Assembly: GCA_029204225.1 (NCBI GenBank)
Contig: CM055104.1
Coordinates: 24,071,285-24,135,284 of the forward strand
Reading direction: 5' to 3'
DNA length: 64,000 bases
Source of the DNA: Diphasiastrum complanatum
Lineage: Eukaryota > Streptophyta > Lycopodiopsida > Lycopodiales > Lycopodiaceae
The notes beneath the pieces were generated by a model. It had not been told where the DNA came from and made no database searches. It saw only the letters and a list, made by a program, of their open reading frames with translations. Of this stretch, positions 5,952 through 64,000 are shown in pieces. Position 1 is the first letter of the stretch. Each line of letters starts with the position of its first letter. Made by a program: the position numbers and the translations under genes.

Positions 5952-6106
5952 ACCTTTCTTGAGTTCGCATAGTCGAAAACTTCGCTGTGAAGCTGCAACT
6001 CGTGCATCACAAAGTACCAATAGCTCACAAGCTTTCTTCAAGAGCCCGCTTTTCCGTTTTGAGAAGGTCACCTGCCTTCTATCCTCTTTATCTCAATCTT
6101 CCCGCG
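5952..6106 (-). pseudogene. Broken MADS-box exon (MIKC-like)
   Basis: Read on the minus strand, the MADS domain appears in three frames. RGKIEIKRIE (from 6106) is followed, after a frame change and loss of a few residues, by QVTFSKRKSGLLKKACELLV and LCDARVA. After a second frame change comes EVFDYANSR (near 5955). These are the conserved blocks of a plant MADS domain in the right order and spacing, but no single frame encodes them and no initiator Met sits before RGK. The coding part ends at AAG followed by GTGACT, a plausible splice donor, so a genomic exon copy is likelier than a retrocopy. It is unlinked to the MADS gene at 52.3-54.6 kb. Confidence 0.8.
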
Positions 6107-6406
6107 TCACAAAGATCACAGTTTCCCCTTGTTGCAGGGGTAATGCTATATGGAAACGATTGGAACATAATGAATATTAATGATTGTTCGTTTTCTAGAA
6201 TCTTATTGTTCTCACGCCATAAAAGAGACTTTCATCGATAACTATCCAACTGAGCATAACAAACGACAATTGGCTCTCGAAGTATAAAGTTACCTTGATT
6301 GACTGCGTCTATGAAACAACTGTCTTTTCTTGAAAATTTTACATATGGAATAGGAAACATGATGTATATCTGATACCATGATACAATTCAAGAGATTAAC
6401 GCAGCA

Positions 6407-39254: not shown

Positions 39255-41668
39255 ACATTTTATTTATTTACATGCACGACGAGAATACCCCCAACAATAA
39301 GTTGCCTATACATCTGCTCCATTGGTGTTTCTACATGCTTGCAATCTTGCATCTTGAATCTATTGAGCAAACTTTGGGCATACTTAGATTGACTAATGAA
39401 GATGAAATCTGAACCTCTAAGTACTTCTATGCCTAATATAAAGTGAAGTTGACCAAGATCTACCATCTTAAATTTTAGAGATAGGTTTTTCTTGGTTTTC
39501 TCAATACTATCAATGTTATAACCACTAATAATGATGTCATCTACATATATCAAGAAAAGCACAATGCCATTTACATAACACATTATGTACAAAGTTGGAT
39601 CATATTCACTTTGAGTGAATCCAATAGAAACTAAGAAATCATGAAGTCTTGAATTCCAAGACCTTGATGCTTGCTTCAAACCATATAAGCTCATTTGAAG
39701 ATGACATACTTTACCATCCATTTCGAGCTTGATGAAGCCTTGGAGTTTCTCCATGAAGATGTCTTCTTCTAAATAACCATTTGAGAATGCATTAGAAACA
39801 TTCATTTGAAAGAGCATCCAATCAAAATGTGAAGCAAGTGCAAGAAGTAACTTCATTGTGACCATCTTGGCCACGCGTACAAAGGTTTCTTCATAATCTA
39901 TGCCCTTTGCTTGAGCATATCCTTTGGCAACTAACCTTGCCTTGTGTTTGCTTACACTTCCATATTGAGTTTTAGCTTAAAATCCCATTTACATCCGATC
40001 ACATTCTTAAGGCGTCTATCAACAAGGATCCGTGTGCCATTCTCCATCAAAGCATTGTATTCATCTAACATAGCTTGAAACCATTCCTTTGAACTCAATG
40101 CATCTTCTACACATGAAGGTTCTTTAAAACTTGAAATGAGTGCAAAGGATGAAGATGGATTACCCTCGGCTTGCTTGCCCTTCTCTTGGCATGTGAGCCT
40201 CAATGGCTCCATTCTTGCCCTTGATGATCTTTTTGGAGTGATTGGTTCACTTGGCTCTAGCTCCTCCTCAAGATCTAGATCATCTTGATCCTCGGCCACC
40301 TCCCTCTTGATAGGTGATTTGTTTGAGCCATCAACAAGTTTATGCATCTTATCCTTATCAAAATGATATCTCTAGAAACCACAAACTAGTTTGAAGATCG
40401 AATGTATACCTTATATCCCTTGTTTGCTTTGCCATAATCAAGCATGATACCTTTGATTGATGATGGATCTTCCTTGGTCTTTGTCTCCAAAGGTGTATGC
40501 ACATAGCAAATGCATCCAAACACCCTTAAGTCCATAAGATTTGGCTTCCTCCTATACAAGACTTTGAATGGAGTTTCGCTTTCAATAGAGCTACATGGAA
40601 CTCAATTCATCAAATGGTTAGCACACAGAAATATTTTGGTAAATATGCATCAATACTTAAGGCTTAGAACATTCACGCAATGTCCTATTACTCCTCTCGG
40701 CCATTTTGTTGAGGGATGTAGGGACAAGATAATATTTTTTTTATCCATTTTTTATCACAAAAATCCTTAAATGCATTGGAAATATATTCTCCACCATTAT
40801 CACTTCTAATAGTTTTGATCTTGTGATCAAGATGCTTCTCAACAAATGCTTTGAACTTAAGAAAGCTTTTAGATACTTGTGCTTTAGATGAAAGTAAGAA
40901 TACCCAAAAAAAACCTTGAGTAGTCATCTATGAATGTAACAAACATGGTGGTACCTCCATTGGACATTGTACTTGCAAAGTGTACATCCGAGTGGATCAA
41001 CTCAAGTTGATGAGTTGTCTTTGTGATGGAACTTGAGAAGGGCTTCTTATGTGCTTTTGAGAGAGCACATGCTTCACACACTTTCTCTTCTTTTTCCAAG
41101 GATTTTGGAAGTCCTAAGGCAAGCACCTCCTTGCACATGACCTCCATGGAATTTGAGTTGATGTGGCCAAGTCTTTTGTGCCATAGAACATGGTTGGATA
41201 GCTTGGTCTCCTCAGCTAGCATCACAACATTAGCATCCACATAGGCATCTAGCTTGAACAATCTTCCATACCTTATGCCTCTAACACTGATCTTGCCATC
41301 CTTCTGACGTTACATGTATTTGTGGTGAACTCCACAATAAAACCATTGTCAAAGCAATTGTCCTACACTAAGCAAGTTCTTAATGATACTAGGAATGTAA
41401 AGTACTCCATCAATCTTGATCTTCTTTGAAGATCCCAATCATAAAGGTATAGATCATATATCTTCTACCTTACAAGCATAATCATTTGCTGTAAAAGTTG
41501 ACTTGATAGGTCCATCATAGGTAGATAAGGTTGAAAAATACTCCCTCTTACTTGTCATGTGGGAGCTAGCCCCACTATCTATCCACCAAGGGTCTTCACC
41601 TATTATGCTTGAAGATGAGAAACTTGACATCATGAGTGAATCTTCATGAGAGCTCTCTTCCTCTTACT
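39255..41668 (-). mobile_element. Copia element 3, internal fragment
   Basis: A minus-strand copia pol fragment lacking gag, RNase H and LTRs. From 41668 down there is protease (WWIDSGASSHM near 41560-41590), GAG-pre-integrase (LWHKRLGHINSNSMEVMCKE) and integrase (VTFIDDYSRFF; IRSDNGGEYISNAF). RT has CKWDFKLKLNM, SNAFSNGYLEEDIFM, LYGLKQASRSW, YVDD at 39536-39547, and LLNRFKMQDCKHVETPMEQ. The frame changes at about 40930, 40690, 40350 and 39930. Both ends are abrupt. Confidence 0.88.
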
Positions 41669-42924: not shown

Positions 42925-44799
42925 CTATGAAGATTTGAGCATTGATCTTGATATAACTCCAAGATTAGATCTATGCTTGATGAAAGCACTTTTGCTCAAA
43001 GGCTTGGTGAGTAGATCGGCAATACAAGAGGATGAGTTGACATGCTCCAAATAGATTTCTCCTCCAATAAGCTTTTCTCTCACAAAATGGTGTGCCACTT
43101 CTATGTGCTTGCTTCTTGCATGAAATATGGGATTGTTGGCAAGAGCTTGGGCCGAGATGTTATCACACTTGATCATTGGTAGATCATCTTCCTTGATGCA
43201 CTTTAGCTCCATTAATAACCTCTTGATCCAAAGCACCTCTTTGGTAGTTGTAGTGAGTGCTTTGTGCTCGGTCTCACATGAAGAGAGAGATATAGTATCT
43301 TGCTTTTTGGAAAGCCAAGATATTAGATTGCCTCCAAGAAAGATAGTGTATGTACTAATAGACTTTCGATCCATCTTGTCACTTGCAAAGTCCGAATCCG
43401 AGTAGCCAACAGTGAATAGATCTTCACTTTTATAGAGTAGACTATAATCACAAGATGAAGATACATATCTTAGAATCCTGTTGGCCATCTTCCAATGATG
43501 GATCTTAGGATCTTGCATAAATTGACTCAATTTGTGCACACAAAAACTTAGATCGGGCCTAGTAATGGTAAGCCAAATCAAGGAGCCTACAAGACTCCTA
43601 AAAAGTGTGATGTCCTCAAAGGATCTTTCATCACCTTTATTAGGATCTTTCACAATTTGCTCCATTGGAGTATCTATGCTCTTAGAATTTTCCATATGGA
43701 ATTTTTTCAACATAGAGTGAGCATATCTAGATTGGCATATAAAGATATGATTTTCATAAGAATCAATTTGTAGGCCTAGGATGTAATGTATCTCTCCTAG
43801 ATCTTGCATTTTAAACTCACATCCAAGTGCTAGCTTAGTTTCATCAACTAGCTTGATATAACTTCCACAAAGAATAATGTCATCAACATAAATTAGAAGA
43901 ATGACAATATTGCTATCAACAAACTTTAGATACATGGAAGGATAATAGTCACTAAGAGTAAATCCTATTGAGATAAGAAAAGAATTAAGTCTTGAATACC
44001 ATGATCTTGGTGCTTGCTTGAGTCCATAAAGACTTTTGAAGAGCAAGCACACTTTGGACTCATCCTTGATGAATCCTTGAGGTTGTTCCATATAGATCTC
44101 CTCTTCAAGATAACCATTTAGAAAAGCATTGGATACATCTAATTGGAATACCTTCCACTTGAAGAAACAAGCAAGAGAAATAAGAATTCTTATTGTCACC
44201 ATCTTTGCAACGGGTGCAAAGGTCTCCTCATAATCAAGACCATGGATTTGAGCAAATCCTTTGGCACATAATCTTGCTTTATGCTTGTTGATGGTGCCAT
44301 CATGATTGAACTTGATCCTAAATACCCACTTGCAAACAATCACATGCTTGTTGGATGGAGGATCCACGAGCTCCCAAGTATTGTTGGTGATCAATGCATC
44401 ATACTCTTGCTTCATGGCATCATACCACTCCTTGGTATTGAGTGCCTCTTGTACATTCTTTGGCTCTTCATGAGAGACATAAAAAACATAATTAGTGGAA
44501 TCAAGATCCACTTGTTTGCCTTTATCAACATATGAGAGCCTCTTAGGCTCGGATCTATCTCTCATGGATCTTTTTGGTGAGAAAATTCGAGGAGAGTGTT
44601 CTTCAAATCTCGACCCCATCACATCATGATTGTCTTCAAAATCAATAATTGGTGATGCATCCATAGATTTCTTGATCTCGGCCTCTTCAAAAGATGAGTG
44701 TTGATCTTCATGAAAGACAACATCTCTACTTTCAATAACTTGAGAAGTAGAGAGTATAAAGACTCTATAGGCCTTCTTGGTGGATGAGTATCCAGCCAT
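42925..44799 (-). CDS. Copia 4 pol, RT-RNase H frame (624 codons)
   Basis: Reverse transcriptase and RNase H in one uninterrupted frame. It begins in the integrase-RT linker (KAYRVFILSTSQVIESRDVV) and has WELVDPPSNKHVIVCKWVFR, YKARL-equivalent HKARLCAKGFAQ and [47 protein letters not shown] and catalytic YVDD (43879-43890) follow. RNase H motifs are GYSDSDFASDKMDRKS, SLSSCETEHKALT, DNISAQALANNP and KHIEVAHHFVREK, and the frame ends ISRSMLKSS. It copies the element's RNA into DNA and removes the RNA. All expected RT blocks are present. In other copia elements it is part of one Gag-Pol polyprotein; here a frameshift separates it from integrase. Confidence 0.92.
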   Translation of the reverse strand: MAGYSSTKKAYRVFILSTSQVIESRDVVFHEDQHSSFEEAEIKKSMDASPIIDFEDNHDVMGSRFEEHSPRIFSPKRSMRDRSEPKRLSYVDKGKQVDLDSTNYVFYVSHEEPKNVQEALNTKEWYDAMKQEYDALITNNTWELVDPPSNKHVIVCKWVFRIKFNHDGTINKHKARLCAKGFAQIHGLDYEETFAPVAKMVTIRILISLACFFKWKVFQLDVSNAFLNGYLEEEIYMEQPQGFIKDESKVCLLFKSLYGLKQAPRSWYSRLNSFLISIGFTLSDYYPSMYLKFVDSNIVILLIYVDDIILCGSYIKLVDETKLALGCEFKMQDLGEIHYILGLQIDSYENHIFICQSRYAHSMLKKFHMENSKSIDTPMEQIVKDPNKGDERSFEDITLFRSLVGSLIWLTITRPDLSFCVHKLSQFMQDPKIHHWKMANRILRYVSSSCDYSLLYKSEDLFTVGYSDSDFASDKMDRKSISTYTIFLGGNLISWLSKKQDTISLSSCETEHKALTTTTKEVLWIKRLLMELKCIKEDDLPMIKCDNISAQALANNPIFHARSKHIEVAHHFVREKLIGGEIYLEHVNSSSCIADLLTKPLSKSAFIKHRSNLGVISRSMLKSS

Positions 44800-45500
44800 G
44801 CACTAGGATCTTCTTTCTTCCTTGTTTCCAAGGGAATATGGACAAAGCATAAGCATCCAAAAACTCTAAGGTGATCAACCTTAGGCTTATTCAAATATAA
44901 TATTTCATATGGTGACTTTCCTCCAAGAGCTATATGTGGGAGCCTATTGCAAAGATAATTTGCACAATTAATGGCTTCTCCCCAAAAATCTTTGGGCAAA
45001 GATGCCTCAATTCTCATAGATTTTGCACATTCACATAGAGATCTATTCTTTCTCTCGGCCACTCCATTTTGAGATGGAGAGTAGGCACAAGAGAATTCTC
45101 TTTTAATGCCTTCAAGCTCACAAAAATACTGAAATTTATTGGAGATATATTCACCACCTACGTCACTTCTAAGAGCTTTAATCTTGAATGAGAATTGCTT
45201 CTCTACATAAGCTTTGAAAATAAGAAAATGATCAAACACCATAGATTTAGAAGCAAGAAGATATATCCAAGTGAATCTTGTGAAATCATCAATGAAAGTA
45301 ACAAAACAAGTGGCTCCTCCCTTGCTTGTAGTTGATGAGAAATGCACATCCGAGTGGATTAACTCCAAAGGATGCTTGCTTTTGATAGAAGATATTGTAA
45401 ATGGCTTTTTGTGAGATTTAGCAATAACACAAGCCTCACAAGGCTTGATCTTCTTGGAGAATGACTTTGGCAAGCCAATAGCTTTGGCTTCTTTGATCAT
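44619..45500 (-). pseudogene. Copia 4 integrase frame
   Basis: Encodes the GAG-pre-integrase C-terminus (CEACVIAKSHKKPF) and integrase core with catalytic-type residues: HSDVHFSS (first D), ALRSDVGGEYISNKF (second D) and NGVAERKNRSLCE (E). PKDFWGEAINCANYL and VFGCLCFVHIP follow. The last about 60 codons (after ETRKKED) are a shifted reading of the linker that the frame at 44799 reads correctly, marking a frameshift near 44800. The N-terminal join to gag-protease also needs a frame change near 45500. Confidence 0.9.
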
Positions 45501-46896
45501 AGAGCATGGATTTGTAGTTGGGATGTCCCAACCTCCTATGCCATAATTCCTCCATAGAGAGCTTGTTCACAAGAGCAACATTACAAGCATTCACATACTC
45601 ATTTGGATCTAGTTTATAGATGCCACCAAATCTAGATCTTAATTTAAGTATCTCATCATTCTTCATGATAGTGCAAGTATCAACATTGAATTTTACATCA
45701 AGGCCATTATCAAGCAATTGGCCAACACTAATAAGATTCTTGGTAAGCTTAGGTACATAAAAAACTTTAGAGAGAGAAAGAACTTTAGAGGATGCAAGCT
45801 TCAAGGGAATGTTCCCTATGCCTTCAATAGGACATTCAAAATCATTTGCAATGTATATTGATTTCTTGACTCGATCATAAGGTGCAATAAAAGAGAAAGA
45901 GTCCTTGGAGCTACACATATGTGAAGAGGCTCCGCTATCAATATACCATAGGCCGTCCTTCTTGAAAGGAGTAGATGAGAAACTAGAGACCATAAGAGAT
46001 CCCTCTCCATGACTTGCAATAGTGTCTTCCTTCTCATTGGTAATGTTGGCTTGCTTGAGTTGATTCTTCTTCTTGAAGCAATTGGTGGCATAATGACCTT
46101 TCTTGCCACAATAAAAGCACTTGATCTTCTTCTTCTTGAGCTTGGATGATGAAGCATTAGAGGAATCATCTTCCTCCTCATCTTTGTCTTTGGATTTGAC
46201 TTTGTCCTTGCTTGAGGATTGTTGATGTTGGTTCATGCTCCTCCCTTTGTGCTTTTCCTTGGCAAAGAGAGCTTTGCCATCATTATGAGTGAGAGAAAGC
46301 TTGTCCATCCTCAAGAGCTTGTACTCTTGTCTTGATTCTTCCGAAATTAGCACACTTTGGAGAGCCTCCAAACTTGGTAGCTCCTCCTTAATGGCATAAG
46401 ATTGGACAAGGTTATCAAATTCACTTCTCAAGCCATTGAGAATGACTTGAACTAGCTCATTTTGATTGATGGAATCACCAATACAAGCAAGTTCTCTATG
46501 AATATCTTTTACTCTCAAAACATAACTAGATGCACTCTCATCACTCTTTTGGCTATTTTGAAAGATTTGATTCTTAAGAGTGAGAAGCCTAGAGGTATTC
46601 TTAGCCTCATAGATAGTCTTGAGACAATCCCAAGCTTCTTTGGCTGTTGTACAAGTACCTATCTCCCTCAATATCTCATTAGAGACATTCATCTTAATGT
46701 AGTGGAGAGCCATCCTAGGTCTCTTTTTGTATTTTTGAACCTCTTGAAGAACTTGTAATTGTTCTTCAAGGCCAAGAACTATGTCCATCACGTCTTGAAG
46801 GATCAAGATGGACTCCATCCTCATTTTTCAAATTGAATAGTTTGAAGTGGACAATCTTTCACTTGGTTCCAACAAGGATGAACCCATTGAAGACAT
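45436..46896 (-). pseudogene. Copia 4 gag and protease
   Basis: The likely start is the ATG at 46894-46896 (MSSMGSSLLEPSERLSTSNY). A TGA at 46828-46830 replaces the conserved Trp of SIW. Beyond it the frame is open for over 450 codons: capsid (MALHYIKMNVSNEILREI; AKEAWDCLKTIYEAKNTS), Lys/Glu/Asp-rich linker, CCHC knuckle CFYCGKKGHYATNC, protease WYIDSGASSHMCS, and LWHRRLGHPNYKSM before a frameshift near 45500. Gag forms particles and protease cleaves the polyprotein. One stop and one frameshift separate it from integrity. Confidence 0.9.
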
Positions 46897-47649: not shown

Positions 47650-48274
47650 TGTTGAATTTCCTATGGCAAAAACACACTACGACATGCATTCAATCACTTC
47701 CAACTCTCACTCACACGTGTGGGAAGTATTCAAAAAATAATCTAAGTAAAAACAAGCTGCTCTCCTCGGGTAGAGAGAGAAAAAGCATCATGAGCTCTCG
47801 GGTAGACAGAGAAAGCTAGAAATCCAATAACACTCAAAATCCATATAATCACCAAATCAATTAGCTTCAAAATGAGGAATACAATAATACTAGTAGATCC
47901 ACGAGCTACCACTATGCTTAACTAGGATTGGACCATACTTTGTCACCTCTTGATCCTATTGGACCATTGATCCATGCACCTCTTAATTCTATTGGACTAT
48001 ATTCAAGCATACCTCAATTTCCTATTGGACATCACATGGTTCCACCTCCAAATCCTATTGGACCTCTTGGAATTCATCAAACAAAAGCATTACACTTGTC
48101 TACACTCTAATTGGCACGAGTTTAGCCTCTTACTCTATTTTGGCTCAATAGTGGCATTACAAATAGAAATGCATAATTTGCCATCTATGCCAAATTTGTT
48201 CCTATCAACATGCTTGATGTAGAAAACATAAGACCCCTATATCTAACATAGATAATCTTTTTCAATTCTTGACA
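47650..48274 (-). repeat. 5' LTR of copia 4 (625 bp)
   Basis: Matches 42298-42906 plus the shared first 11 bases. It contains several cctattggac motifs about 30 bp apart and lacks the 91-bp block found in the other LTR. Confidence 0.92.
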
Positions 48275-48279
48275 GATTG

Positions 48280-51200
48280 CAATGCGGGCATTCACAGTTT
48301 GGATCAAAATGCAATTCAACCCAAAATGAGTGAAATCCAAAACAAAAAGAGACCTGCTTCACCATCCCCACCCCTCTCCAATCGTCCTCACCATGAATCA
48401 CCCTTTGTTGCATCTCTTCCTTCGCCTGCACTGTATTGTCCCCCACATATTTGTTCTTCTATTTCTTCTTCTCCTTCGTCATCCTCGCAGAATTCTATAC
48501 CTCCACCCTCCCGTGTACCTTGTCCAGGATGCGGATGTTTATATATGCAGAGCGCGGGGCTTTCCAGGCATCAAATTGCTTGTACTGCCTTCCAACAACG
48601 AGCTTCCCTTTAGGAATCTCCCCAAACACCACGTCCTGCTCCACTTTCTCCTCCCAACTCAAGTTGGGCTTGGGCTCGCAATCATGATATTTTGCGCCTT
48701 TATGCTTTATGCCCGCATTCCTAAGGCCCTTCGCCTTGACGTTCAAAGAGCTCTTCGACTACCTTTGACCCGTTTAGCTACCAACCCTTTTGATATCGCG
48801 GCTTGGCATGTTTTCTTGCTCTTTCCCCTTTGGTGTTTGCCTCTTCCTCCTAGAGGTGGTAAAGCAGGTCATCGGGAAACACATAACAAAATTCGGCGTT
48901 TCATGTCCGGTGATTAGGAAAATTTGCAAGAGAAACTTTTTGTTCGTTGCAATGCACTTGCAGCAAAACGGGAGTTTAATTCAGGCTCCGACTTGGGTTC
49001 CATTCCTATTCATAGTCGTCTACGTCGTTGTGTTTTGCTTGGACAAGCTGGTGAATTTTCTCGGGCTGCACATGCTCTTGCTCCATCAATTTCGGCAGCA
49101 CCTTCTTCTACAACTATTCAGGCATTGGAACAACTTCATCCCCATGCAAGTAATACTCTTTCTTTATTTGTGGAAGACTTTCAGCCTGACTCCAATCTTC
49201 AACTTGTAGAAGCTCATTATATGAAAGCTTTTCTGCGTAGTCCTCGCCTCTCAGCCGGTGGACCTTCAGGAATGGTTTTTGAACATCTACGTGATTGTTT
49301 TTCACCAGAAGATTCTGCTAGCGGGTTTGATCTTCTCTTCAAGATGTGCTCTTTCATTGCATATGGGCAAATCCCACCTTCAGTTGCTCATTTTTTAGGT
49401 GTTGCTCGTCTTTTAGCATTGGATAAAGCTTCTGGTGGTGTGCGTCCAATTGCAGTGGGGGAATGTTTATACAGGTTGGTGGCAAAAGCACTCTGTTTCC
49501 AGTTTTGAGAAGCATTTCATGCTCATCTTTTTCCATTTCAATTTGGGTGTGCTACTCCTGGCCGTTGTGAGACAGTCGCGCTATTTTGGATATTCATCCT
49601 GATTGGGTAGGATTGCAAATTGATGTTACTAATGCTTTTAACTCGGTTTCTCAGGCGGTTTTCAAGAACTTCGTGGTGCTCAAGATACACTTGTCTTGCT
49701 CATTCCTTTTGTGCAGAGCTTCTATTCAAAAAGTTCTCCCTTATACTTTAGTCATGCTTCTTGTGTTGGTGATGTTACCATCATTTCTTCATAATCTGTT
49801 GAAGGAACTCGTCAAGGAGATCCTTTGGGTGGTCCTCTCTTTTCTTTGGCACATTATCGTGCATTGCGTGCTACAGCTTCAGCTTTTCAGTCCTGTCTAT
49901 TCCCCTCTATTGCGGATGATACTCATATTGTGGGGCCTACAAGTGAAATTGTCCCTGCTTTTTTGCATTTCTCAGCTCAACTTTCTTCTATTGGGCTTAC
50001 AGTGAACAAGGATAAGTGCGTTGCTTGGTGCCCAAAAGGCCTTCCAGCAGATATCTCCTTACCTAAAAGTTTCATTACTCAAATTGGGATTAAAGCTTTG
50101 GGTGTTCCCATTGGTTCTTCTGGATATGTCAATTCATTTATGCGGGAAGCTCTGGATGGATTTGCTCGACATTCGGATTTGTTGCCAAAGCTTGGAAATT
50201 CTCAGGTTGCATTTGGAATTCTCACTCAGTGCTTTGCTCAACGTCCTAGCTATCTTCTACGTTGCGTATCTCCTTCACCTGATATAATATCCTTACTTCA
50301 GGATTTTGATGATACTTTATTGGGCGTATTTGGTCGTCTTTTGGGGCCAGGAACATTTGACACTTGTGAAGGTCGGTTTTCTAAGCGGCAGATTTCTCTT
50401 CTTGCTTCCTCTGGTGGTGTTGGCCTTGTATCTACTGCTTGCATTGCAGCAGTTGCTTTTCTCGAAAGTTGGGCTCTTGTTGCCTCTACACTAGTCTCCA
50501 GGTTTCAGCAAGGTAACCAACCTCTTCTTCTTGATATGGTAGCTTATGTGGAGACTGGCAATTTCGCTTTTCAACAAGCTCTACACTGCTCAAGATTTAC
50601 TCCCACCACTTGTACAACTTTTTGTGCCTCCCTTTGAATCTTTGGTGACAAATCAACAACGAGTTTTTCAGAAGACTATTATGGAGCATCTTCACTCTTA
50701 TTCCTTCGGTCATCTTATCAAAGATTCACCTTCTGATACAGTTCGAGCTCGTCTTCTATCTTGTGCTGGTCCAGGTGCTGGGGCTTGGTTGGTTGCACGT
50801 CCAGTTCTTCCACTATTGAGACTCAATAATGACTTGTTTATAACTGCCCTTTGAACCAGATTGGGACTTCCACATCTAATGTTAATTGGTATCTCTAAGT
50901 GTTCATGTGGGCATGTATTGGATTCCTTGGGTACTCATCTTATGCGTTGTCCATCAGGTGGAGAACGTATTATTTCACATGATTCCATTCGTGATGCCCT
51001 GGCTGCTATTGCTCATGATAGTGGCTTTCATGTTGTTCAAGAACATACACACATTTTACCAGGGCCTTCATCGCAATCTACCTGACGACAAGTTGACCTT
51101 GTTCTCTCGCGTGATGGAATTCGTACTCTGGGAGATGTTGTAATTGCTGATCCCTCTCGTCAGAACCTTCTTCGTCGTTCTTCCACCGCGCAAGGGGCCG

Positions 51201-52298: not shown

Positions 52299-54558
52299 CT
52301 ACCCCAATTTTAGAAGCGTTTGCAAGTCAGAGTTGTCATTTCTGGACGTCTGGTCATCTAGCTGAACGGAGAGTCTCTCGTCTCCGTTTTCTATAGTTGA
52401 GGGTTCCCTTGTCTCCATGTTTGTTATATCTAGCATGGGTGTTGTCATCTCATTCTGTGCGGCAATCTGCAAGAGCAATACTCGCAAGACTCATAAAAAA
52501 GCTAGATTTCTATGCAATTGGCAAAAGGGTGAAATAAAACCTTAAAACTTGAAATTTATGACTAAAATTGGCTAATTTGAAACATTTGAAAACCCTAACC
52601 AAATGTAAAATTGAAATGGAAAATCTGTATTTCAGCAATTGGACTGTTGTATTTGTCTGTTTTTTACAAGCACTCAGTAAGAGTACGAGTAACTCATAGA
52701 ACAATAATTTATCATGAGGGGTTGGCTCAGTTGGTTAGCGAGATGATGTTGGACATGTGTGTGAGGTCTGATATCACGGCACTGGATACTTTCTAAGCAG
52801 ACAAAAAAGTTACCCTTCTGCGCAACACTCGATTTTCCTCCAGCAAGATAGTTTCCTGTTAGATAAGATCCGTAAGACCATGTTTTGATCAACGATACCC
52901 ACAGCTCAACCTCTTTCAGTGAAATAGGTGCCATATGCAACTATACGATGAGCCATACAATGAAAAAAAAAAAACCATGGGATAGTTATGTAGGGTAGAC
53001 AATTTAGCTTGTTAACTGTCAAATTTTGTTCATAGGTTGTCTGCCATTGGTGACGCTCAATCAGAATTTAGAACATAGCTGGTGGTCGAAGGTGCTGCGC
53101 CACTTTCAGATACTAAACGGGTTCAGTTAGCTGTTTACTTTAACAGAGTTATCTCAGAGTTGTATTCAACTGATTCGACCTCCACAAATTGCCTCTCATC
53201 AACAATTTCTAATAGGTCAGGGCATATGGTAACGGGGCAGCAACCTCTTAAGTTCGCAGTAGCCGTACTTACTAACTGCATCTGGGGCAGAAATAGACCA
53301 TCAACCCTAACTGCTTCTCTTTAACATTATCCATTGTAACGGCACTAACAGCAAGTGGGGCTCTCCTCTTAAGAACTTTAGCAATTTGCAAATTCAAGGG
53401 AATGGGAATGTTATTCCATGGAATTATTGTGCATTTTCTGATCAATTCAAACTCCTGACTTGTTTTCTTAAATCTTCACGATTTGGTAGGTGACTCTTCT
53501 TTTATATCAAGGAAAGTTTAAGATTGATCACATGAGACAGATCAAGCTTTTCCATCTATTTTACCCAAAAAGCAGCTATTTCTCACAGTATACGTAAAAA
53601 CAACATGAACAACCTGGTTAGATACCTTTTTAGTTAAATCATCTATCTGATGAAGAAGAACCTTATCCTGCAAACCAACAACATAATAATAATTACGTAT
53701 GTCATAATGGGTTAAGAGAGCAAAAGACGCAAACTAGAAATTTCCAGGGAAACAACCGGAAACCTCTTATATTCTATAGTTGGAAAGTCCCATCAACCAT
53801 GACCATTGTTTTTTTATTACCTTCCTCAAACGGATACGATTTAATCCAACATAAACCCCTTGTTCGAGTTCCTCCAATTGGTTCAGATCCAGAGCTGACA
53901 GATCCTCACCTAGCATATGCCTGCAATTATAACTTACTTTATTAGAGAACCTCCAAAAGGTGGCTAGATGGTGAGGACTCTCTCTCCTCTACTTGAGGTA
54001 TCAGGTGGTCGACTACAATCCATCTTACAAATGAAGACATACAAAGTGAGATAAAATCTTAAATTGAACGTTATTTGTTCAATGTCACATGATTTCTAAG
54101 ATGCAATTCTATACACTGGTAGCTTCCATAGAATGCTCATAAGTGCAAGCTTGTACCTTATTCTCTGATTGCATCGATCCAACTCCTCTTCGAGTTTTTC
54201 AGCTTCATGACTCTGGGACTAGCAGACATACATTCAAGTCAATGATATTTGAGTCAAACAAGCTATTCTGACTCCATCTCTAGAACCCTTTTTAAGTAAG
54301 GAGCCTGCAGTTAAGCCATGCCTATCTGATTGACATACAGAAATCACACATACAAATCATTTAGAAAACATCCAAAATAAAGACAATGGAACTACAAGAA
54401 CAACCTTTTGACTAGCTTATGCATTTCAGCATCATGATTTTTGTGCACGTCTTTAACAATTCAACTCATGTTTTCTCACCTCAAGGTCATGATGGAAAAA
54501 TGGTTTTATCTGCACGTCCACGGAATTTTTCTCGTACCTAGCCAAGATTTCTTTCATA
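52299..54558 (-). CDS. MIKC-type MADS-box transcription factor, exons 2-7
   Basis: Six exons read in one phase through GT-AG introns. Exon 2: 54480-54558 (79 bp, SMKEILARYEKNS…, I-region). Exon 3: 54157-54218 (62 bp, QSHEAEKLEEELDRCNQRI). Exon 4: 53821-53920 (100 bp, HMLGEDLSALDLNQLEELEQ, K-box). Exon 5: 53626-53667 (42 bp, DKVLLHQIDDLTKK). Exon 6: 52814-52855 (42 bp, ETILLEENRVLRRR). Exon 7: 52299-52466 (168 bp, ending DLQTLLKLG and TAG). Lengths 79-62-100-42-42 are the plant MIKC pattern. The K-box coiled coil mediates dimerisation; the protein would bind CArG-box DNA in the nucleus through a MADS domain. That domain (exon 1, about 185 bp) is not in the window on this strand. Exon 2 begins in phase T|ATG, as expected after it. 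The C-terminal LKLG tail loosely recalls SVP/StMADS11 proteins, but subfamily is not settled. Confidence 0.93.
52715..52790 (+). mobile_element. tRNA-like A-box segment in MADS intron 6
   Basis: tggctcagttggttagc (52723-52739) is a pol III A-box sequence like that of the SINE at 63.8 kb. No B box follows, so this is a fragment or a chance resemblance. Confidence 0.45.
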
Positions 54559-54638
54559 CTGGCAGAGATGATGTTAACATGCAGCAAATACGTGATGTTT
54601 TACAAAGCATCTCACAAGACATGTACCTTCTAACTTCA

Positions 54639-54641
<3 letters not shown>

Positions 54642-54683
<42 letters not shown>
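54642..54683. repeat. (CT)n microsatellite in MADS intron 1
   Basis: About 42 bp of CT repeats, ending 83 bp upstream (minus-strand sense) of exon 2. Confidence 0.95.
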
Positions 54684-54685
<2 letters not shown>

Positions 54686-55834
54686 TTGTTAAAACCCTAA
54701 AATCAATGTGAGGACTGCCGAACAAGATCCAAGAGGAATAACAGAAAATACACAAATTCCAGCCTCATGTGATTATTTTAGGCCTCCCAAATTCCAATCC
54801 TAGTACGAGAAATGCAAACAAAAAATAGCAGACAAACCAATGGAAAAAACCAACAAGTATATAGCATGTGAGAATAAGATACAACTACTGCATTTCAATG
54901 TGAATGCTACAAACTTTCACAGTTAATTTTATCGATTGAGATACAACCAAGGTCTTGGCAACTAGATGGATATAATTTTTCACCACTCTGATCATCTTTG
55001 CATCTGATTCAATGTATAGCAAAGGGTTCAAGATTTAATATAACATTTTTCCTAGAAAACAAATATATTCATGATAAGCAGAAAGTTACAGTTCCCATAA
55101 AAGCTGCAAGCATAAAGGTGATGAATATTAGAATGGACACGCATATGCAGCAACAAAGTAAAAATAGGTAGACAAACAGAACCAGATCTATCATAGAATG
55201 TTACTCTAACAAATGGAGGAGCAGATCAGAAAACACAGTAACAAAGTTACACAAAAGGACATTATATTAACAAAAAGATGTCATACATAAAAAGTAGTTA
55301 ACTGTTGCTACTAGCTACTCCTTATGCTTTACTTGTGATTGCTTATTGTCTATGCTGCAACTCATTATATACTCTACTGCCTTTCTTTCCTGCTGGAATC
55401 TCACTAAAAAATTTAATAGTTCTGTTTGTTGTTCTCCTTGTGCAATTGCTACAGCCACTTTTGTGTACTATCTGGCTAGTCCTTGTTCACGCTGATCATG
55501 TTTAGCTGTAAAATGTACTTCATTGCAGATTTGAGTAGCCTATATTGTACCCATAAAAACGTATTCCAAGGAATTTTGGGCCAAGTGCTGTGAGCCCAAA
55601 ACAGGAATTTCTCAGGGTTTGCATATATACTCCCTTCTCTCTCCTGTTGCACGGTTTCCTCATCAGCACCAACTCCCCATTCCTGATGCACAGATATCTC
55701 ATTTTGGCCTTTTATGGCTATGTACCTATGTGCTTGACGTCGTAAATCAGTGGGATAGCAGCGGAAGTAGAACAACGGACGGTTGTAGATCGGAAGTGCA
55801 ATAGTTACCAACAATAATTAAGATGAATAAACAG
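54684..55834. other. Probable MADS intron 1 DNA
   Basis: No MADS exon, other gene or element was recognised. A 112-codon minus-strand frame at 55476-55814 has no domain. Confidence 0.5.
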
Positions 55835-56127
55835 TGTTGAAAAATGTACGCGTGATAAAAATCAGAAGGTGAGTACATGGGCGTGAAGCTAATGAGCGCA
55901 ATTTAGTGAGGCACAGATATTTTTTAGAGCTTCCGTCTCTATATAGATAACTAACTGAAAAGATATTTATTTACAAAATATTTTCAAGTCTTTCAGGTCA
56001 ATGCTTTTCTACCTACTTAATTGATTACAGTCGCCTTGTAGTTGGTAACCGCCTTTTAATTAATAAAGACTATGTACAAGTAGGTGAATTGCCATGAAGT
56101 CTTGGATCGACTTTTCCCTGATGATGA

Positions 56128-56410
56128 AGTCAGATTGTTCGGCCTAGTCAGATTGTTCGGTCTAGTCAGATTGTTCGGCCGAGTCCAAATTGTCGGCTTA
56201 GTCTGATTTGTCGGCTGCTTCCTCTTGTCGGTTGCCTCCGATTTGTTGGCTGCCTCAGATTTGTCGGCTGCCTCAGAGTCAGATTAGTTGGTTGCCTCAG
56301 ATTTGTCGGCTGGGTCAGATGTGTCGGCCGAGTCAGATTTGTCAGCCGGGTCAGGTGTGTCGGCCGAGTCAGATTTGTTGGCTTCCTCAGATTTGTCGTT
56401 TGAGTCAGAA
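56128..56410. repeat. Minisatellite inside the LTR of copia 5
   Basis: About 13 units of 18-24 bp on the theme gtcagatttgtcggct(g/c), with variants ttcggcctag and ttggttgcctc. In the truncated 5' LTR (60410-60480) only about three units exist. Confidence 0.9.
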
Positions 56411-56472
56411 TTTTTCAGGATGCTCATTACCGAATGGATTTGGACTTGAGCATAGAAATCCAACACTCCCCC

Positions 56473-59412
56473 TTAATGCGGATCCTGAAAAACTTTGATC
56501 TTCAGATTTAGCATGTCGTTAAATCTGAGATGGTGCTCCTTTGATAGAGCTTTCGTGAAGTAATCTGCTGCCATAAGATCTATCCTGCAGTAAATCAATG
56601 ACACTTCCTTGCTTTGCACTTTTTCTCTAAGGTAGTAATACCTGATTTCGATATGTTTGCTTCAAGAGTGAAATCTCGGATTTAGAGATAGTGCAATTGT
56701 GCTTTGATTGTCACAATAGATTGTCGTTGGATGTGTTTGAGCAAGGTCGATATCTTCAAGCAGGTTCCTTAGCCAAATTGCCTCCTTGGTAGCATTTGTG
56801 GCAGCTATGTATTCTGATTCGGTCGATGATGATGTTACTAAGGTCTATTTTCGGTTGTTCCATGAGATTGGGCCTTGATTGTATAAGAATACAAATCTAG
56901 AAGTCGATATCTCCTGCCCAATCTGCATCTATGTATCCTTCGAAAATATTGGCAGGTTGGCTGCCTCCATAACAGATGGTAAGATGTTTTGTTGCTTGGA
57001 CATACTTCATGACCTTTATGAGTGCTTTCCAATGGGTTGAACCTGGATTTGATAGGAACTGGCTAAGTGAACTGATTGAGTATGCAAGGTCTGGTCGAGT
57101 GCAAAGCATTGCATATATCAATGAGCTGATAATGGAGTGAAATGGATCTTGCTTCATTTCCTCCTTTTCTACCTCGGTTTGACGGCATTGTTCCTTCGAT
57201 AATTTCAGACCAGGGTCGAGTGGAAAGTAACTTGATTTGCAGTTGGTCATTCCATATTTTTCCAGCTTATTAGTGAGATATCGTTGTTGACTAATATAAA
57301 TATGTCTGCTGGATCGATTTCAATGAATCTGGATTCCAAGGCAGTAATGGGTTGGACCCATATAAGTCATCTTGTACTCTTGTGCTAGCATGCATTTCAT
57401 ATCCTTCAATAAATTTAGATTGTTACTAAAAAGTAACGTATCATCCACATAAAGAGTGATGATTATGAAGGAAGGAAAAACAGACTTGAAGTAAACATTC
57501 GAGTTTGTCGAGTTTGGAATAAAACCATTCTCGCTTAGAAATGAACCGATTTTCTCATGCTCTTGGTGACTATATCAGACCATACAGAGCCTTGTGGATT
57601 TTGCATACTAGGTGTTCCTTGCCCATGAGCTCGTATCCCTCTAGTTGGGACATATAGACCTCCTCTTTGATAGTCCCATTGAGGAAGGCAGTCTGGACAT
57701 CCATTTGGTGGACTTCAAGATCGGCTGTAGCTACAAAGGAGAGCAGTAGACGAATCGAAGCATGCTTAACGACAGGGCTGAAGGTTTCTGAATAATCCAT
57801 ATCTGGAATCTGGGAGAAGCCTTTGGCGACAAGCCTGGCCTTGTATTGATTTAATCTTCCTTCAGCATCATACTTCGTTTTGAAGATCCATTTGCATGGA
57901 ATTGGATTTCGATCCTTTGGTAGCTCAGTAATAGTCCATGTTTGATTCTCGATGAGAGAATCGAATTCAGTGTCCATCGCCGCTTTCCACTAGTCATCAT
58001 TAGGTGTCGACATTGCCTCTGAAACAGTGCTTGGTTCCTGCACAAAGTAGCAGGCTGGATCATCCATGAATCGGGATGGAGGCTGTCTGGGGGTTGAACT
58101 TCAATCCTCTGATGTGGTTCGACTTGTCGAGGGTCTGTCTCTTTGTCGGAGTCGGAGTCAAGTTGCTGATCAATGCTGAGTTCCGCATTGTCGGCTCTGG
58201 GATAGGAAGTCGATGGAGCTTTCCCCTTGTGGTCGATGAATCGATCTTCCACAAAAATGACATCTCTATTGGTAAACGATTTCTGAGTGTCCAGATTGTA
58301 AAGCTTGTATGCTTTGTGGTCTAGGGAAGAGCCGATGAAAATCGACTTTTTGCTAGTGTCGTCCAGCTTCTTTCTTAGATCAGTAGGGATCTGAGCATAG
58401 GCAATACATCCAAACACTCGAATATGCTTGAGTGATGTTTTGATACTGTCCATACCTCATAAGGTGTTTTGCCATTTAGGGATTTTGTGATTGATCGATT
58501 CTGCAGATAGGCGGCTGTGGTAACAGCTTCTGCCCAAAATTTCTTTGGAAGAGAGGCATGGGCCAACATGCTCTTGGCACTTTCGATGAGTGTTCGATTT
58601 TTCCTTTCAGCTGTACCATTGGACTGAGGTGAGTAGCTGGTTGCAAATTGCTGATGTATTCCACTGGCCTTGCAGAACTCCTTGAATTTTGTGGAGATGT
58701 GCTCTCCCCCTCCATTTGTGTGTAGAGACTTGATCTTCCTCTGGGTCTGGTTTTCTACAGACGCCTTGAACTACTTGAAGAACTTAAACACTTCAGATTT
58801 GTTCTTCATAAAGTAAGTAGCAGTCCTTCGAGAGAAGTCGTCAATGAAGGTTAGGAAATAGAGAGCTCCCCCTGTGGAAGCAGTCTGCATAGGGCCACAA
58901 ATGTCACTATATACAAGATCAAGCAAACCTTTGGAAGTATGAACTGAATCAGAAATAAAAGTACTTCTAGTATGCTTGCTGATAATATAGCTTTCACATG
59001 GAGAATTTGGTTTGCTGACAGAAGGAAGATCTTGCACTAGATTCTGAGTCGACATTTGCTGTATACTATTGAAGTTTAGTTGGCCTAATCTAAAATGGCA
59101 AAGCATATCAGTTGATTCAGAAGTGGCTGTGTGAAGAGCTTGACTGTTAGAAGAGTAGCAATGGCTAAGTTTGTAAAGATAGCCGCTTCTTCTTCCGTAG
59201 GCTAGAACCTTCCAGGATTTGTCAAGAATTGTGCAGCCTTCTATATCGAATTCGACCCTTCGACCAGAATCAGTGATTCTGCCTATCGAAAGCAGATTCT
59301 TGGTGAATGGCTTGTAGCATTGGAACCAGTCTCGATGGTGAGTCATATGTTGAGTTGCTCCAGAGTCCAAGTACCAGGAGTTGATATTTTGATGTTCTCC
59401 AACCTTGGTCAT
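56473..59412 (-). pseudogene. Copia 5 pol
   Basis: From 59412 down: protease WYLDSGATQHMTHHRDWF, CHFRLGQLNFNSIQQM, integrase LVYSDICGPM and FLTFIDDFSRRT, SLPKKFWAEAVTTAAYLQNR, linker RDVIFVEDRFIDHKGK. RT has CKWIFKTKYDAEGRLNQYKA, HQMDVQTAFLNGTIKEEVYM and YVDD near 57440-57451. RNase H has GYIDADWAGDIDF, then SSTESEYIAATNATKEAIWL and KHIEIRYYYLREKVQSKEVS to a stop near 56475. Multiple frame changes and stops make it inactive. Confidence 0.88.
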
Positions 59413-59500
59413 AAAGGCAGCTTCATCTTCCTCTTATTGTTGGATCATGTGACTGGTAACAGTATTGGCTTGTTGATGGAACTGCTTCTTCTTCTTCTTG

Positions 59501-59676
59501 TTGTACTTTAAAGTTCAACAGTCCTTGATGAGATGACCTGTCCTCTTATAATATTTACAGAATAGCTTTTGTCTTTGCTGAAATGCTGTTGTACTTTAAA
59601 GTTCAACAGTCCTTGATGAGATGACCTGTCCTCTTATAATATTTACAGAATAGCTTCTGTCTTTGCTTCATTTGGT
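59501..59676. repeat. 88-bp tandem duplication in copia 5 gag
   Basis: ttgtactttaaagttcaaca starts at 59501 and 59589. The copies are nearly identical (one difference near the end) and duplicate the Gag zinc-knuckle codons. Confidence 0.92.
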
Positions 59677-60359
59677 ACATGCTGTTGCATGTTGCTCTTC
59701 CTGTCAAAATAATCTGACTGTGTAGATCTCTTGGATCTGAACTTATGATTTCTTTTGGAATATAGAGCTTGAGGATCCGATCCTGAGCCTGAGGAGGATG
59801 TAGTTCTTTTGATCTCCTCTTGTAGTAGCATCGAAGTTACTCTTGATAGAGCGAGATGCTCCTGGGTTTGCCCATTACCCAATTTTCATAGGCATCAGGT
59901 AGACTCGATAATAGAGTCATAACTGCATCGGTATCTTCAATGACTAAGCCAGTTGCAGTCATCTGCTCCATAAGATTTTTGAAAGTGTTGAGATAACTCG
60001 AAACACTATCTGCATCAGACATTCTCAAGGTGAAGAATTTCTTCCTCAAATGAAGTTTGGAAGTGACGTCCCTGATATCGTAAAGAGTTGCTAGGCCATG
60101 CATCCTTAGCAGTCTGAGCAGCTCGTATATGGCTGATTTGTGAGTCTTTGATATTGAGAATAATCTTGGCGAATGCCTTGCCATCTCTCAATCTCCATTT
60201 GGTGATGATGGCTGCATCACCTTCTGGCTTGATCTCTGTCCCATCAACTATGTCCCATAGTTCTTTGGCAAGTAGAACTACTTTCATCTTGAGCTTCCAG
60301 AGATGGTAGTTATCTCCATCGAGTTTGTCGAACAGAGATGAACTGGAAGATGGATCCAT
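59501..60359 (-). pseudogene. Copia 5 gag
   Basis: ATG at 60357-60359 (MDPSSSSSLFDKLDGDNYHL), then WKLKMKVVLLAKELWDIVDG. Capsid blocks follow in a second frame (LRKKFFTLRMSDADSVSSYL; MTLLSSLPDAYENWV). A degenerate zinc knuckle CKYYKRTGHLIKDC, with the second Cys replaced by Tyr, is present twice because of an 88-bp tandem duplication (59501-59676). Frameshifts occur near 60080 and 59860. Confidence 0.88.
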
Positions 60360-60534
60360 TTTGTTATAGAGTGAGAGATCGTTGGTAGAAACAATGAAAT
60401 CAGAATACTGTTGGCCGAGTCAGATTTGTCGGTAGAGATAGATTTGTCAACTTCCTCAAATTTGTCGATTGAGTCAGAACTTTTCAGGATGCTCATTACC
60501 GAATGGATTTGGTCTTGAGCATAGAAATCCAACA

Positions 60535-60689
60535 CTTGAGACATCTGAGCTTTCAGGATATTACCCACACGGTAGTGAAATTTGAGACTCATTGCAATTG
60601 GGCATTTATCACTCCTCCTTTATTTTTCATCAATGGCAATACATGGCTCCCTGGCATAAACCACAAAAAAGGTGAGAATTTGGTGGACA
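60535..60689. other. Short unassigned spacer
   Basis: Lies between copia 5 and the gypsy integrase remnant. No signature was seen. Confidence 0.4.
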
Positions 60690-61290
60690 GTTGTGTGGTG
60701 TTGTAGGTTGTGACATACGTGACCAGATAGTTGTCCCATTTCTCTATGCCCTTTGTTCCTTAATTGATGCCTCTAGTACCCTTTTGACTGTTAGGACAAC
60801 TCATTCTGCCATGTTGCATTGTAGCCAATAAGGATTGGCTCTGATGATGAGTGCCATGCTCATGGAAAATGGCCTCATAATCTTGATTTTACTTAAATCT
60901 GTTGCCTATTAAGACCATGATAGGGCATCCAAAGCAATATCAAGATCACTCCAACAAGACCTTGGTTGATTGCATATAATATGCTCTAAGAACCTCTAAC
61001 CATTTAGTGAAGTGGTCAATGACAAACCAATGGCTCAAATGAGCCAGAAGCATCCATAGCAATTTTTCGGAATGGTTAAAGCTGTGCAACACAGGGTCTC
61101 CCTTCGTTTAACTATCCCTCACTAATTGGCAAGTATGACAATCTTCAGTGATATTGACCACCATAGCAGTGATATCCTCCCAATAAAAGTGTAACTCGAG
61201 TTGTTGCAACAATATATTCACTCCTACATTGTGAGGAACCGTCCATGAGCTAATCTTTGGTTAACCACACATTAGCAAGTGAACAACCCT
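60690..61290 (-). pseudogene. Ty3/gypsy integrase remnant
   Basis: Minus-strand blocks HFYWEDITAMVVNITEDCHT, CQLV, then HWFVIDHFTKWLEVLRA, and later a piece like FGCPIMVLIGN. They match the plant gypsy integrase order (W-x-x-M, C-x-x-CQ, D-x-FTKW-x-E, FG-x-P). Stops and frame changes are frequent, and RT or chromodomain parts were not found nearby. Confidence 0.7.
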
Positions 61291-62138
<848 letters not shown>

Positions 62139-62540
62139 CGTGCTCAGCCACCACCTCTTGCTAGATCTACGTGCGCCTCTAGAGCTATCAGAGCTCCTAT
62201 ATCACAACCCACAGCTGCTATGGATATTAGACGCTTTTTCTAAGATTGATATTTATCCTTTTACTTTCCTCAGCAGAGCAGGCGGTTAAGCTCTTGTACA
62301 TGTACCCTCTTCAGAGCTGGAGGTTAAGCTCTTATGTATCTACTCTTTTATGCATTTTATGATTCTATATTGGCTATGTTTTTTCCTAGCTCGAGAGAGT
62401 TCTATATTGTCTTTTCCATTTAGAATAGCGTTTTTTTATTATTATGTTGTCCGACATGGACAGTAATCCTACGAGACATGTACTTATTCATTCTGTCTTA
62501 TGTGTGTGCCCTTGGGCACTCAACAGACATTAATACATTT

Positions 62541-62544
<4 letters not shown>
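62139..62544. other. Non-coding tail with a short tandem repeat
   Basis: Contains two copies of a 38-bp unit (62274-62349; cagagcaggcggttaagctc then cagagctggaggttaagctc). It may be the 3' UTR of the preceding retroelement fragment. Confidence 0.5.

Positions 62545-62637
<93 letters not shown>
62545..62637. repeat. (CT)n microsatellite, about 93 bp
   Basis: Uninterrupted CT repeat on the right of the retroelement fragment, mirroring the tract at 61521-61627. Confidence 0.95.
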
Positions 62638-62639
<2 letters not shown>

Positions 62640-63047
62640 GGGGCACAGGTCTTATGCTGAAATAAGGAGAAAACGATCATTCTTTGGTTTCAACCAATTT
62701 TAGTTATAGTCTGTAGAATGAGATAGAATCAAGGCCTTGAATTTTTATGGATCAACCCCAAACCCTGAATGCAATTTGAATAGTCACATCTAAATTGTTT
62801 TATCAAATCTCAATGTATTAGAGAATCGGGTTTAAAAAAAGTAAACTATTGCTAGTTTAAGGGTTTAGGGCTTAGGGTACAAACGATAGTTGTCTAGGTA
62901 CTTGACCACCAAGTGGCTACAAAATCTCGAAGCAAAATCAAGTCTGAGTGTATGCATATTAATGTGTGTATGTATACAAAATTTTAATATGCAACTTGGA
63001 TTAATGACTAGGACCTAAGGTATGAAGATTCATTGGAGGGCCCCCCT
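62638..63047. other. Unassigned DNA
   Basis: No gene or element recognised. Confidence 0.4.
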
Positions 63048-63461
63048 TTAGGAAATTTATATAGAATTAAAAACATTAAGTTGCAAAATGATATTGATGA
63101 ACTTGAACAATTGATTACCAATTGCAGAGTTAAGAAGTAATCACCTTAATGAGTCTTTAGCTCAATCGAAATTGAATGTTTTATCCATGCAGAATCCAAC
63201 TAGACAAATCAAAGGAAGCCGAGATAGAAGCCTTAGCTAGAAACCATAGTAGAAGAATTGGCACAAGAATTGAAAATAGCTATTGTCAAGGAAGAAAGTC
63301 ACAAATTTCAACGAGAGGTTGATGATGAGAACATGTAGCGAGAAGTTGCTCGTAGCTATTGTGATAAGAAAAGCATGTTGAAAGTTGATGCAACAAAATG
63401 GCATGCTTCGCAAGACACCCAAATCCATGCATTCCACAGGGAAATTTCATATCCCTTATAT

Positions 63462-63520
<59 letters not shown>

Positions 63521-63640
63521 CTCAAAGATGACCTAAGTAATTTGAAGCAACTATTTTTTGATGTTGCTGCATGTCTTGGACCTTATGCCCACAATAAATA
63601 CATGCAAGCAAACAAGAAAATTCTAGAGTTTTGATAGATA
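63048..63640 (+). pseudogene. Decayed coiled-coil protein fragment, split by (GA)n
   Basis: Helical, charged blocks appear in the plus strand: LYRIKNIKLQNDIDELEQLI (63054-), then LETIVEELAQELKIAIVKEE (63237-) with an in-frame TAG near 63336. SYCDKKSMLKVDATKWHA follows, and, after the (GA)n tract and in another frame, KLKDDLSNLKQLFFDVAACL. Composition resembles the other coiled-coil relics at 2.9, 13.9 and 18.5 kb, but no alignable motif was established. Family unknown. Confidence 0.4.
63464..63519. repeat. (GA)n microsatellite, about 56 bp
   Basis: Uninterrupted GA repeat lying inside a decayed coiled-coil frame and changing its phase. Confidence 0.95.
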
Positions 63641-63780
63641 AAATCAATAAAATCAAGAAGTAGAAGGAAATTGTGAGACATATCACCTCTCAGTTGATAA
63701 TGATGTAATGTCAAGGGTTCAATAGCCATAATGAATATCCGACTGCTATCACCGAAAATGATAGGCTATGTAGGGATAAT

Positions 63781-63866
63781 GCTTCTTGGTTTCCAAGGGG
63801 AGGATCGAACTTGGGACCAAAGAAACTTTGGATGCCAAGCTAACCAAGTGAGCCAACCTCAATGGG
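63781..63866 (-). mobile_element. tRNA-derived SINE head
   Basis: On the minus strand, ggttggctcacttggttagc provides a pol III A box (63839-63855), followed about 28 bp later by aagttcgatcc, a B box (63802-63810). Spacing and both boxes are as in a tRNA gene, but no cloverleaf with a paired acceptor stem is evident, so a tRNA-derived SINE is more likely. A related piece lies at 52182-52233. Confidence 0.7.
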
Positions 63867-64000
63867 TCTATGTAGGGATAATGGCAAATGAAACTACAAA
63901 TTATTGATGTCCTGTATGCGAAGGAAGTTGAAGCTGCTACTCAAGACATGAGACTATCCCTTCCAGTCCACACATACCAAGAACAAGCAAGCTAAGCAAA

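Follow-up and report, generated by a model that had tools for sequence, protein, structure and literature searches.

Does a series of very short exons on the minus strand of Diphasiastrum complanatum contig C13 belong to a functional MADS-box gene of the host, or is it debris in a region in which retrotransposon sequences abound? The stretch of DNA analysed (the window) is 64,000 nucleotides long and corresponds to C13:24071285-24135284, in an assembly of 1.74 Gb and 5,176 contigs. A first-pass annotation, made from the letters alone, had described five internal exons of 79, 62, 100, 42 and 42 bp, joined in phase through GT-AG sites into an I region, a K-box and a C-terminus ending in LKLG, and had attributed them to a host MIKC MADS-box gene. 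These exons are present (Table 1). All five introns between exons 2 and 7 have GT-AG borders, their phases join the exons into a single frame, and splicing yields 163 aa terminating in LQTLLKLG followed by a TAG stop, with no stop codon or frameshift in any exon. K-box exon lengths of 62, 100, 42 and 42 bp are marks of the MIKCC family. The spliced peptide matches the Pfam K-box with 73 bits (E 2.3e-20; cut-off 30 bits) and can be aligned to the K-domain structures determined for SEP3 (SEPALLATA3), SVP and AG (AGAMOUS). The 100-bp exon was also recovered, with 31.9 bits (cut-off 30), by a genome-wide six-frame K-box scan made independently of the exons first described. The tiny size of the exons and the abundance of retrotransposon ORFs around them might suggest a chance run of short MIKC-like ORFs or a retroposed fragment. 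Chance is ruled out by the K-box score after splicing and by the genome-wide match, and a retroposed copy by the introns, which a retrocopy would have lost; the exon pattern is, moreover, shared with paralogues. This explanation is already refuted, and its residual probability is negligible. In an ORF scan, nothing as long as 180 aa overlapped 52299-54558, in keeping with the expectation that an ORF-based annotation would miss the gene.

The first-pass annotation had further predicted a MADS exon of about 185 bp on the minus strand, beyond position 64000, and had made its reading depend on it. A motif scan of the window for such an exon yielded nothing usable, and a MADS exon inside the window was rejected, the only MADS match there being a relic at 5876-6135. 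A genome scan for MADS domains bore out the prediction and located an exon of 182 bp on the same strand as exons 2-7, 41 kb past the window edge, and this exon is the nearest upstream same-strand MADS place among the candidates scored. It is also the top match of a whole-protein search, which is no independent evidence, as the query included exon 1. Exon 1 spans the ATG to the donor, its 3' end reading AG/GTAGGT; its last two bases and the first base of exon 2 form a serine codon across the junction (AG/T), and both splice sites of intron 1, the donor and the acceptor, are canonical and compatible in phase. The seven exons (182-79-62-100-42-42-168 bp) are distributed over a coding span of 52,998 bp and encode a protein of 224 aa, with 87 bits for MADS/SRF-TF (cut-off 26) and 72.1 bits for the K-box (cut-off 30). 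Residues 1-71 can be aligned to MEF2 structures and residues 18-71 to SEP3. An N-terminal extension is known in some CRM6 members, according to one account (PMC5915566), and is absent from this gene, because the ATG is preceded, two codons upstream, by an in-frame stop.

With an N-terminal MADS (SRF-TF) domain, a K-box, an I region contained in one 79-bp exon between the MADS and K exons, and K-box exons of 62-100-42-42 bp (exon 3 ranging from 53 to 62 bp among paralogues), this is a genuine MADS-box gene of the MIKCC type, with none of its parts missing. The I region is reported to occupy a single exon in MIKCC genes and 4 or 5 exons in MIKC* genes (PMC5915566); the MIKC* type is ruled out here, the I region occupying one exon rather than several. 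Were the AG located 6 bp into exon 3 used as the acceptor, the exon would have the length found in three neighbouring copies (L014, L015 and L016), and both 62 and 56 bp are possible for this gene.

Table 1. Features of the MADS-box gene and its surroundings. Positions without a prefix are those of the window.
Feature	Position	Strand	Remarks
Exon 1 (MADS)	C13:24176580-24176399 (window-equivalent 105296-105115)	-	182 bp; outside window
Exon 2 (I region)	54480..54558	-	79 bp; acceptor CCAG, donor GTGAGA
Exon 3 (K domain start)	54157..54218	-	62 bp; candidate alternative acceptor 6 bp downstream, giving 56 bp
Exon 4 (K domain core)	53821..53920	-	100 bp
Exon 5 (K domain)	53626..53667	-	42 bp
Exon 6 (K domain end)	52814..52855	-	42 bp
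Exon 7 (C-terminal region)	52299..52466	-	168 bp including stop TAG; METREP and LLKLG
Intron 1, window part	54559..64000	-	total length of intron 1, 50,556 bp
Retrotransposon ORFs, mostly copia-type	21845-24388	-	Pfam domains
Retrotransposon ORFs, mostly copia-type	33863-34663	+	Pfam domains
Retrotransposon ORFs, mostly copia-type	39260-39874	-	Pfam domains
Retrotransposon ORFs, mostly copia-type	42925-46824	-	Pfam domains
Retrotransposon ORFs, mostly copia-type	57851-59412	-	Pfam domains; inside intron 1
Decayed MADS first exon	5876-6135 (core 5994-6089)	-	without ATG, internal deletions; cluster relic, separate from this gene
Broken MADS first exon (L033/L056)	about C13:24208380-24208541	-	about 32 kb upstream of exon 1; frame ends after 46 residues
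Broken MADS first exon	C13:23898788-23898955	+	one TGA, one TAG; seen only in protein search
L010 (tail)	C13:23443572	-	K-box part, in conflict with L052
L052 (head)	C13:23509711	-	MADS exon, in conflict with L010 tail

The first intron carries retrotransposon pieces, identified in both of the window ORFs located there and in six of the nine ORFs scanned in L017-L020. In L017-L021 as a whole, 12 ORFs of at least 150 aa were found and 10 were scanned, the scanned ORF of L021 being upstream of exon 1 and outside the intron. The first-pass annotation had considered the intact frame of the gene to be unlike everything else in the window; this was overstated, as the window also contains an open copia-type ORF, 624 aa long. 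On the plus strand, an ORF run at 48269-50854 resembles, by eye, a reverse-transcriptase element preceded by a C2H2-like finger; its three longest ORFs have no Pfam match at E 0.001. Elsewhere in the assembly, matches to the LEAFY C-terminal domain were observed on C13, on C18 and on contigs C2024 and C3641. One LEAFY exon scored 190 bits to 4bhk, which we take to be a moss LEAFY protein, versus 173 bits to 2vy1, presumably that of Arabidopsis, a difference that is at most suggestive of a non-seed vascular plant. Three short rbcL fragments were also located, and the one that was read carried no usable marker signal.

The great distance between exon 1 and the other exons leaves a second explanation to be considered, namely that exons 2-7 form a headless K-box unit and that the MADS exon 50 kb upstream is part of another transcript or of none. 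K-domain genes without a MADS domain have been reported close to tandem MADS genes in Ceratopteris (PMC11224435), and units of this kind are present in the cluster described below. The canonical, phase-compatible junction between exons 1 and 2 argues against this explanation, as does the finding of no further MADS or K-box match between the two exons among the candidates scored in the K-box, MADS and whole-protein searches.

The gene is a member of a cluster. At least 28 K-box places were found in the genome, at least nine of them on C13 between 23.37 and 24.34 Mb (0.97 Mb), and at least nine of the 61 or more MADS places (seven full-length, two partial) are in the same interval; these counts are lower bounds, the searches scoring the best candidates only. 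The whole-protein search added a third broken MADS exon, at C13:23898788. Position allows a complete series of exons 1-7 to be put together in six of the nine C13 sets (this gene and five others), with first introns of about 12 to 98 kb, as calculated by hand from the coordinates. Three of the six (this gene, L013 and L015) keep an open frame and GT-AG borders throughout. The usual stop is gone from L011, in which the frame continues; in L014 the acceptor preceding exon 7 is AT rather than AG; and L016 is interrupted by an in-frame stop and differs at its C-terminus. L009 and L012 are headless copies: their K-box exon sets contain stops, and neither has a MADS exon of its own upstream. No match to exon 2 of L010 was found in a genome-wide protein search or in its 10-kb locus. 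No K-box match follows the decayed MADS exon at 5876-6135 on the minus strand within the window, making it a tail-less relic. Paralogues in this genome share the exon lengths of 79, 100, 42 and 42 bp; among the five other C13 copies in which exon 2 was placed, it measures 79 bp in four and 73 bp in one. All 11 loci scanned (L005, L007, L009-L016 and L027), three of which lie outside the C13 cluster, have an ETREP motif (METREP, VETREP or LETREP) in the C-terminal region. A tree built on 224 codon columns separates the nine C13 sets from L005 (C15) and L007 (C18) with a support of 100, a pattern that fits an origin by local duplication. These two loci were the only relatives from outside the cluster in the codon tree: L006, the matches of which are identical to those of L007, was left out of the trees, and L027, L003 and the other MIKCC loci also lie outside them. 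This 0.97-Mb stretch is, to judge from its contents, a site of birth and death of MADS genes.

The histories of the two ends of the gene were compared across nine copies, the head being defined as exon 1 with its flanks and the tail as the region around exons 3-5 with its introns; L009 and L012 were excluded. In both trees, this gene adjoins L015/L016 and then L014, with support values of 88 and 98 for the head and 62 and 94 for the tail. This agreement between head and tail trees, flanks and introns included, supports the pairing of exon 1 with exons 2-7, and suggests that the two ends belong together and were inherited jointly. Exon-only trees do not repeat it: exons 3-7 place this gene with L011/L013 (support 93; the two tail trees compare at AU p 0.03-0.04), and its position in the tree of exon 1 by itself is poorly supported (37-53), so gene conversion is possible in this gene. 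A headless unit finds precedents nearby in L009 and L012, and in L010, which has a MADS exon and a K-box part of conflicting ancestry; the agreement of the trees for this gene, added to the evidence from the junction, makes it very unlikely here.

The head of L010 groups with those of L011 and L013 (100), whereas its tail falls outside the other C13 tails tested (100). The head tree was rejected on the tail data (AU p 6.7e-47; SH 0), and the tail tree was rejected on the head data by the AU test (p 3.9e-6) but not by the more cautious SH test (p 0.09). With exons only, the AU value was 0.021 (SH 0.038) for the tail tree on the head data and 4.6e-5 (SH 0.001) for the head tree on the tail data. 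The extent of flanking similarity shows a split matching this conflict, and the MADS exon and K-box part of L010 appear to differ in ancestry. Whether they constitute one working gene is doubtful, because exon 2 was not detected, and the re-paired unit may be dead. It is tempting to see in the cluster a shuffling ground, in which recombination between copies would fall within the giant first introns, separating the DNA-binding from the partner-choice modules and re-pairing MADS heads with I/K tails to form new MADS factors. This idea, for which the L010 conflict, the headless L009 and L012 and the tail-less broken heads (window 5876-6135, C13:24208380 and C13:23898788) form the basis, is speculative and rather unlikely to be correct. 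Among the listed titles and opening lines of abstracts on exon shuffling, MADS-box genes, tandem copies and ferns, no published account of such re-pairing was found. For specialists, the interest of the region lies in the mismatched first-exon and K-box histories of this neighbour.

The gene is intact, and the question of whether it is live was addressed through its substitution pattern. Relative to 10 paralogues, dN/dS over shared codons ranges from 0.30 to 0.69. Values are 0.10-0.24 in the MADS exon (eight paralogues having one) and 0.42-0.69 outside it (10 comparisons), indicating weak constraint in the latter part. A codon model (nine sequences, 224 codons; L009 and L012 excluded) gave an omega of 0.48 overall and 0.524 on the gene's own branch, which did not differ from the background (p=0.77) and was compared with 1 at p=0.058 (LRT), so that purifying selection on this branch is borderline. 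In the dN/dS comparisons and codon tree, codons that are stops in L009, L012 and L016 were scored as missing, and the L016 stop was handled likewise in the codon model. The survival of frame, start, stop and splice sites over the branch length was simulated under neutral decay, with 20,000 runs for each of four settings (two codon-model branch lengths and indel-to-substitution ratios of 0.18 and 0.09). The ratio of 0.18 comes from the four best L015/L016 alignment pieces; our own sums gave 0.16 for all eight pieces and about 0.11 for L009/L010. The gene stayed intact in 0, 0.065%, 0 and 0% of the runs. With survival under neutral decay thus limited to at most 0.065%, its integrity has probably been maintained over most of its past.

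The other alternative is a pseudogene that fell silent recently: all its parts are in place, but expression, or the joining of exons across the 50-kb intron, has ceased. Several neighbours are broken (stops in L009, L012 and L016, AT at the last acceptor of L014, L010 without a detectable exon 2), for which reason a recent loss of expression may have occurred here too; the own-branch omega is only borderline below 1, and retrotransposon pieces lie within intron 1. However, the frame and splice sites are intact although the branch is long enough for neutral decay to have broken them, pairwise comparisons show constraint on the MADS exon, and long first introns are also reported for MIKCC genes of Ceratopteris, in gene models checked against transcriptome reads (PMC9477723). 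Silencing therefore seems unlikely, if less so than a headless unit. The first-pass suggestion of a live gene holds to the extent that an intact frame and intact splice sites are hard to obtain under neutral decay, and falls short of proof with an own-branch omega of 0.52 (p=0.058); function is supported, not proven.

The reading that we favour, with a probability of about 0.88, is that the window contains exons 2-7, the 3' part, of a MIKCC-type host MADS-box gene with seven exons, which is situated in a locally duplicated cluster and most likely works as the family does. Its expression, DNA binding, multimerisation and biological role are inferred from sequence. The predicted role of the MADS domain of exon 1 is dimeric binding to CArG-type DNA, and that of the I and K domains, encoded by exons 2-6, is the choice of partners in dimers and tetramers; the 50.6-kb first intron would have to be removed to connect the MADS exon with the remaining exons. 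The gene itself is ordinary, and it illustrates how a developmental regulator with exons of 42-182 bp and one intron of 50 kb can evade ORF-based annotation.

Like this gene, MIKCC genes have a MADS domain, a short single-exon I region, a K-box, with K exons of 100-42-42 bp, and a C-terminal region; the first intron of 50.6 kb differs from those of classic type II MIKCC genes. The sequence matches to MEF2 (5f28) and, in part, SEP3 (7nb0, 4ox0) over the MADS domain, and to SEP3, SVP (7xgs) and AG (8cra) over the K domain, reflect homology at the level of domains, not orthology. For the fern Ceratopteris, first introns of giant size, MIKCC copies in tandem and K-only relics have all been described before. 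Its genome description reports nine MIKCC loci of 100-216 kb, in which the first intron is often the largest, and two MIKCC genes carrying two alternative MADS boxes (PMC9477723). In a survey covering 71 ferns, CRM1 and CRM6 of Ceratopteris are described as tandemly duplicated, and a figure legend mentions K-domain genes without a MADS domain near the tandem CRM copies (PMC11224435). The CRM-type MIKCC genes of this fern have 6-8 exons (PMC9477723, PMC11224435) and, as described there, resemble the Diphasiastrum gene in this respect and in their long first intron, tandem copies and headless K genes, whereas in Diphasiastrum at least nine K-box sets are located within 0.97 Mb.
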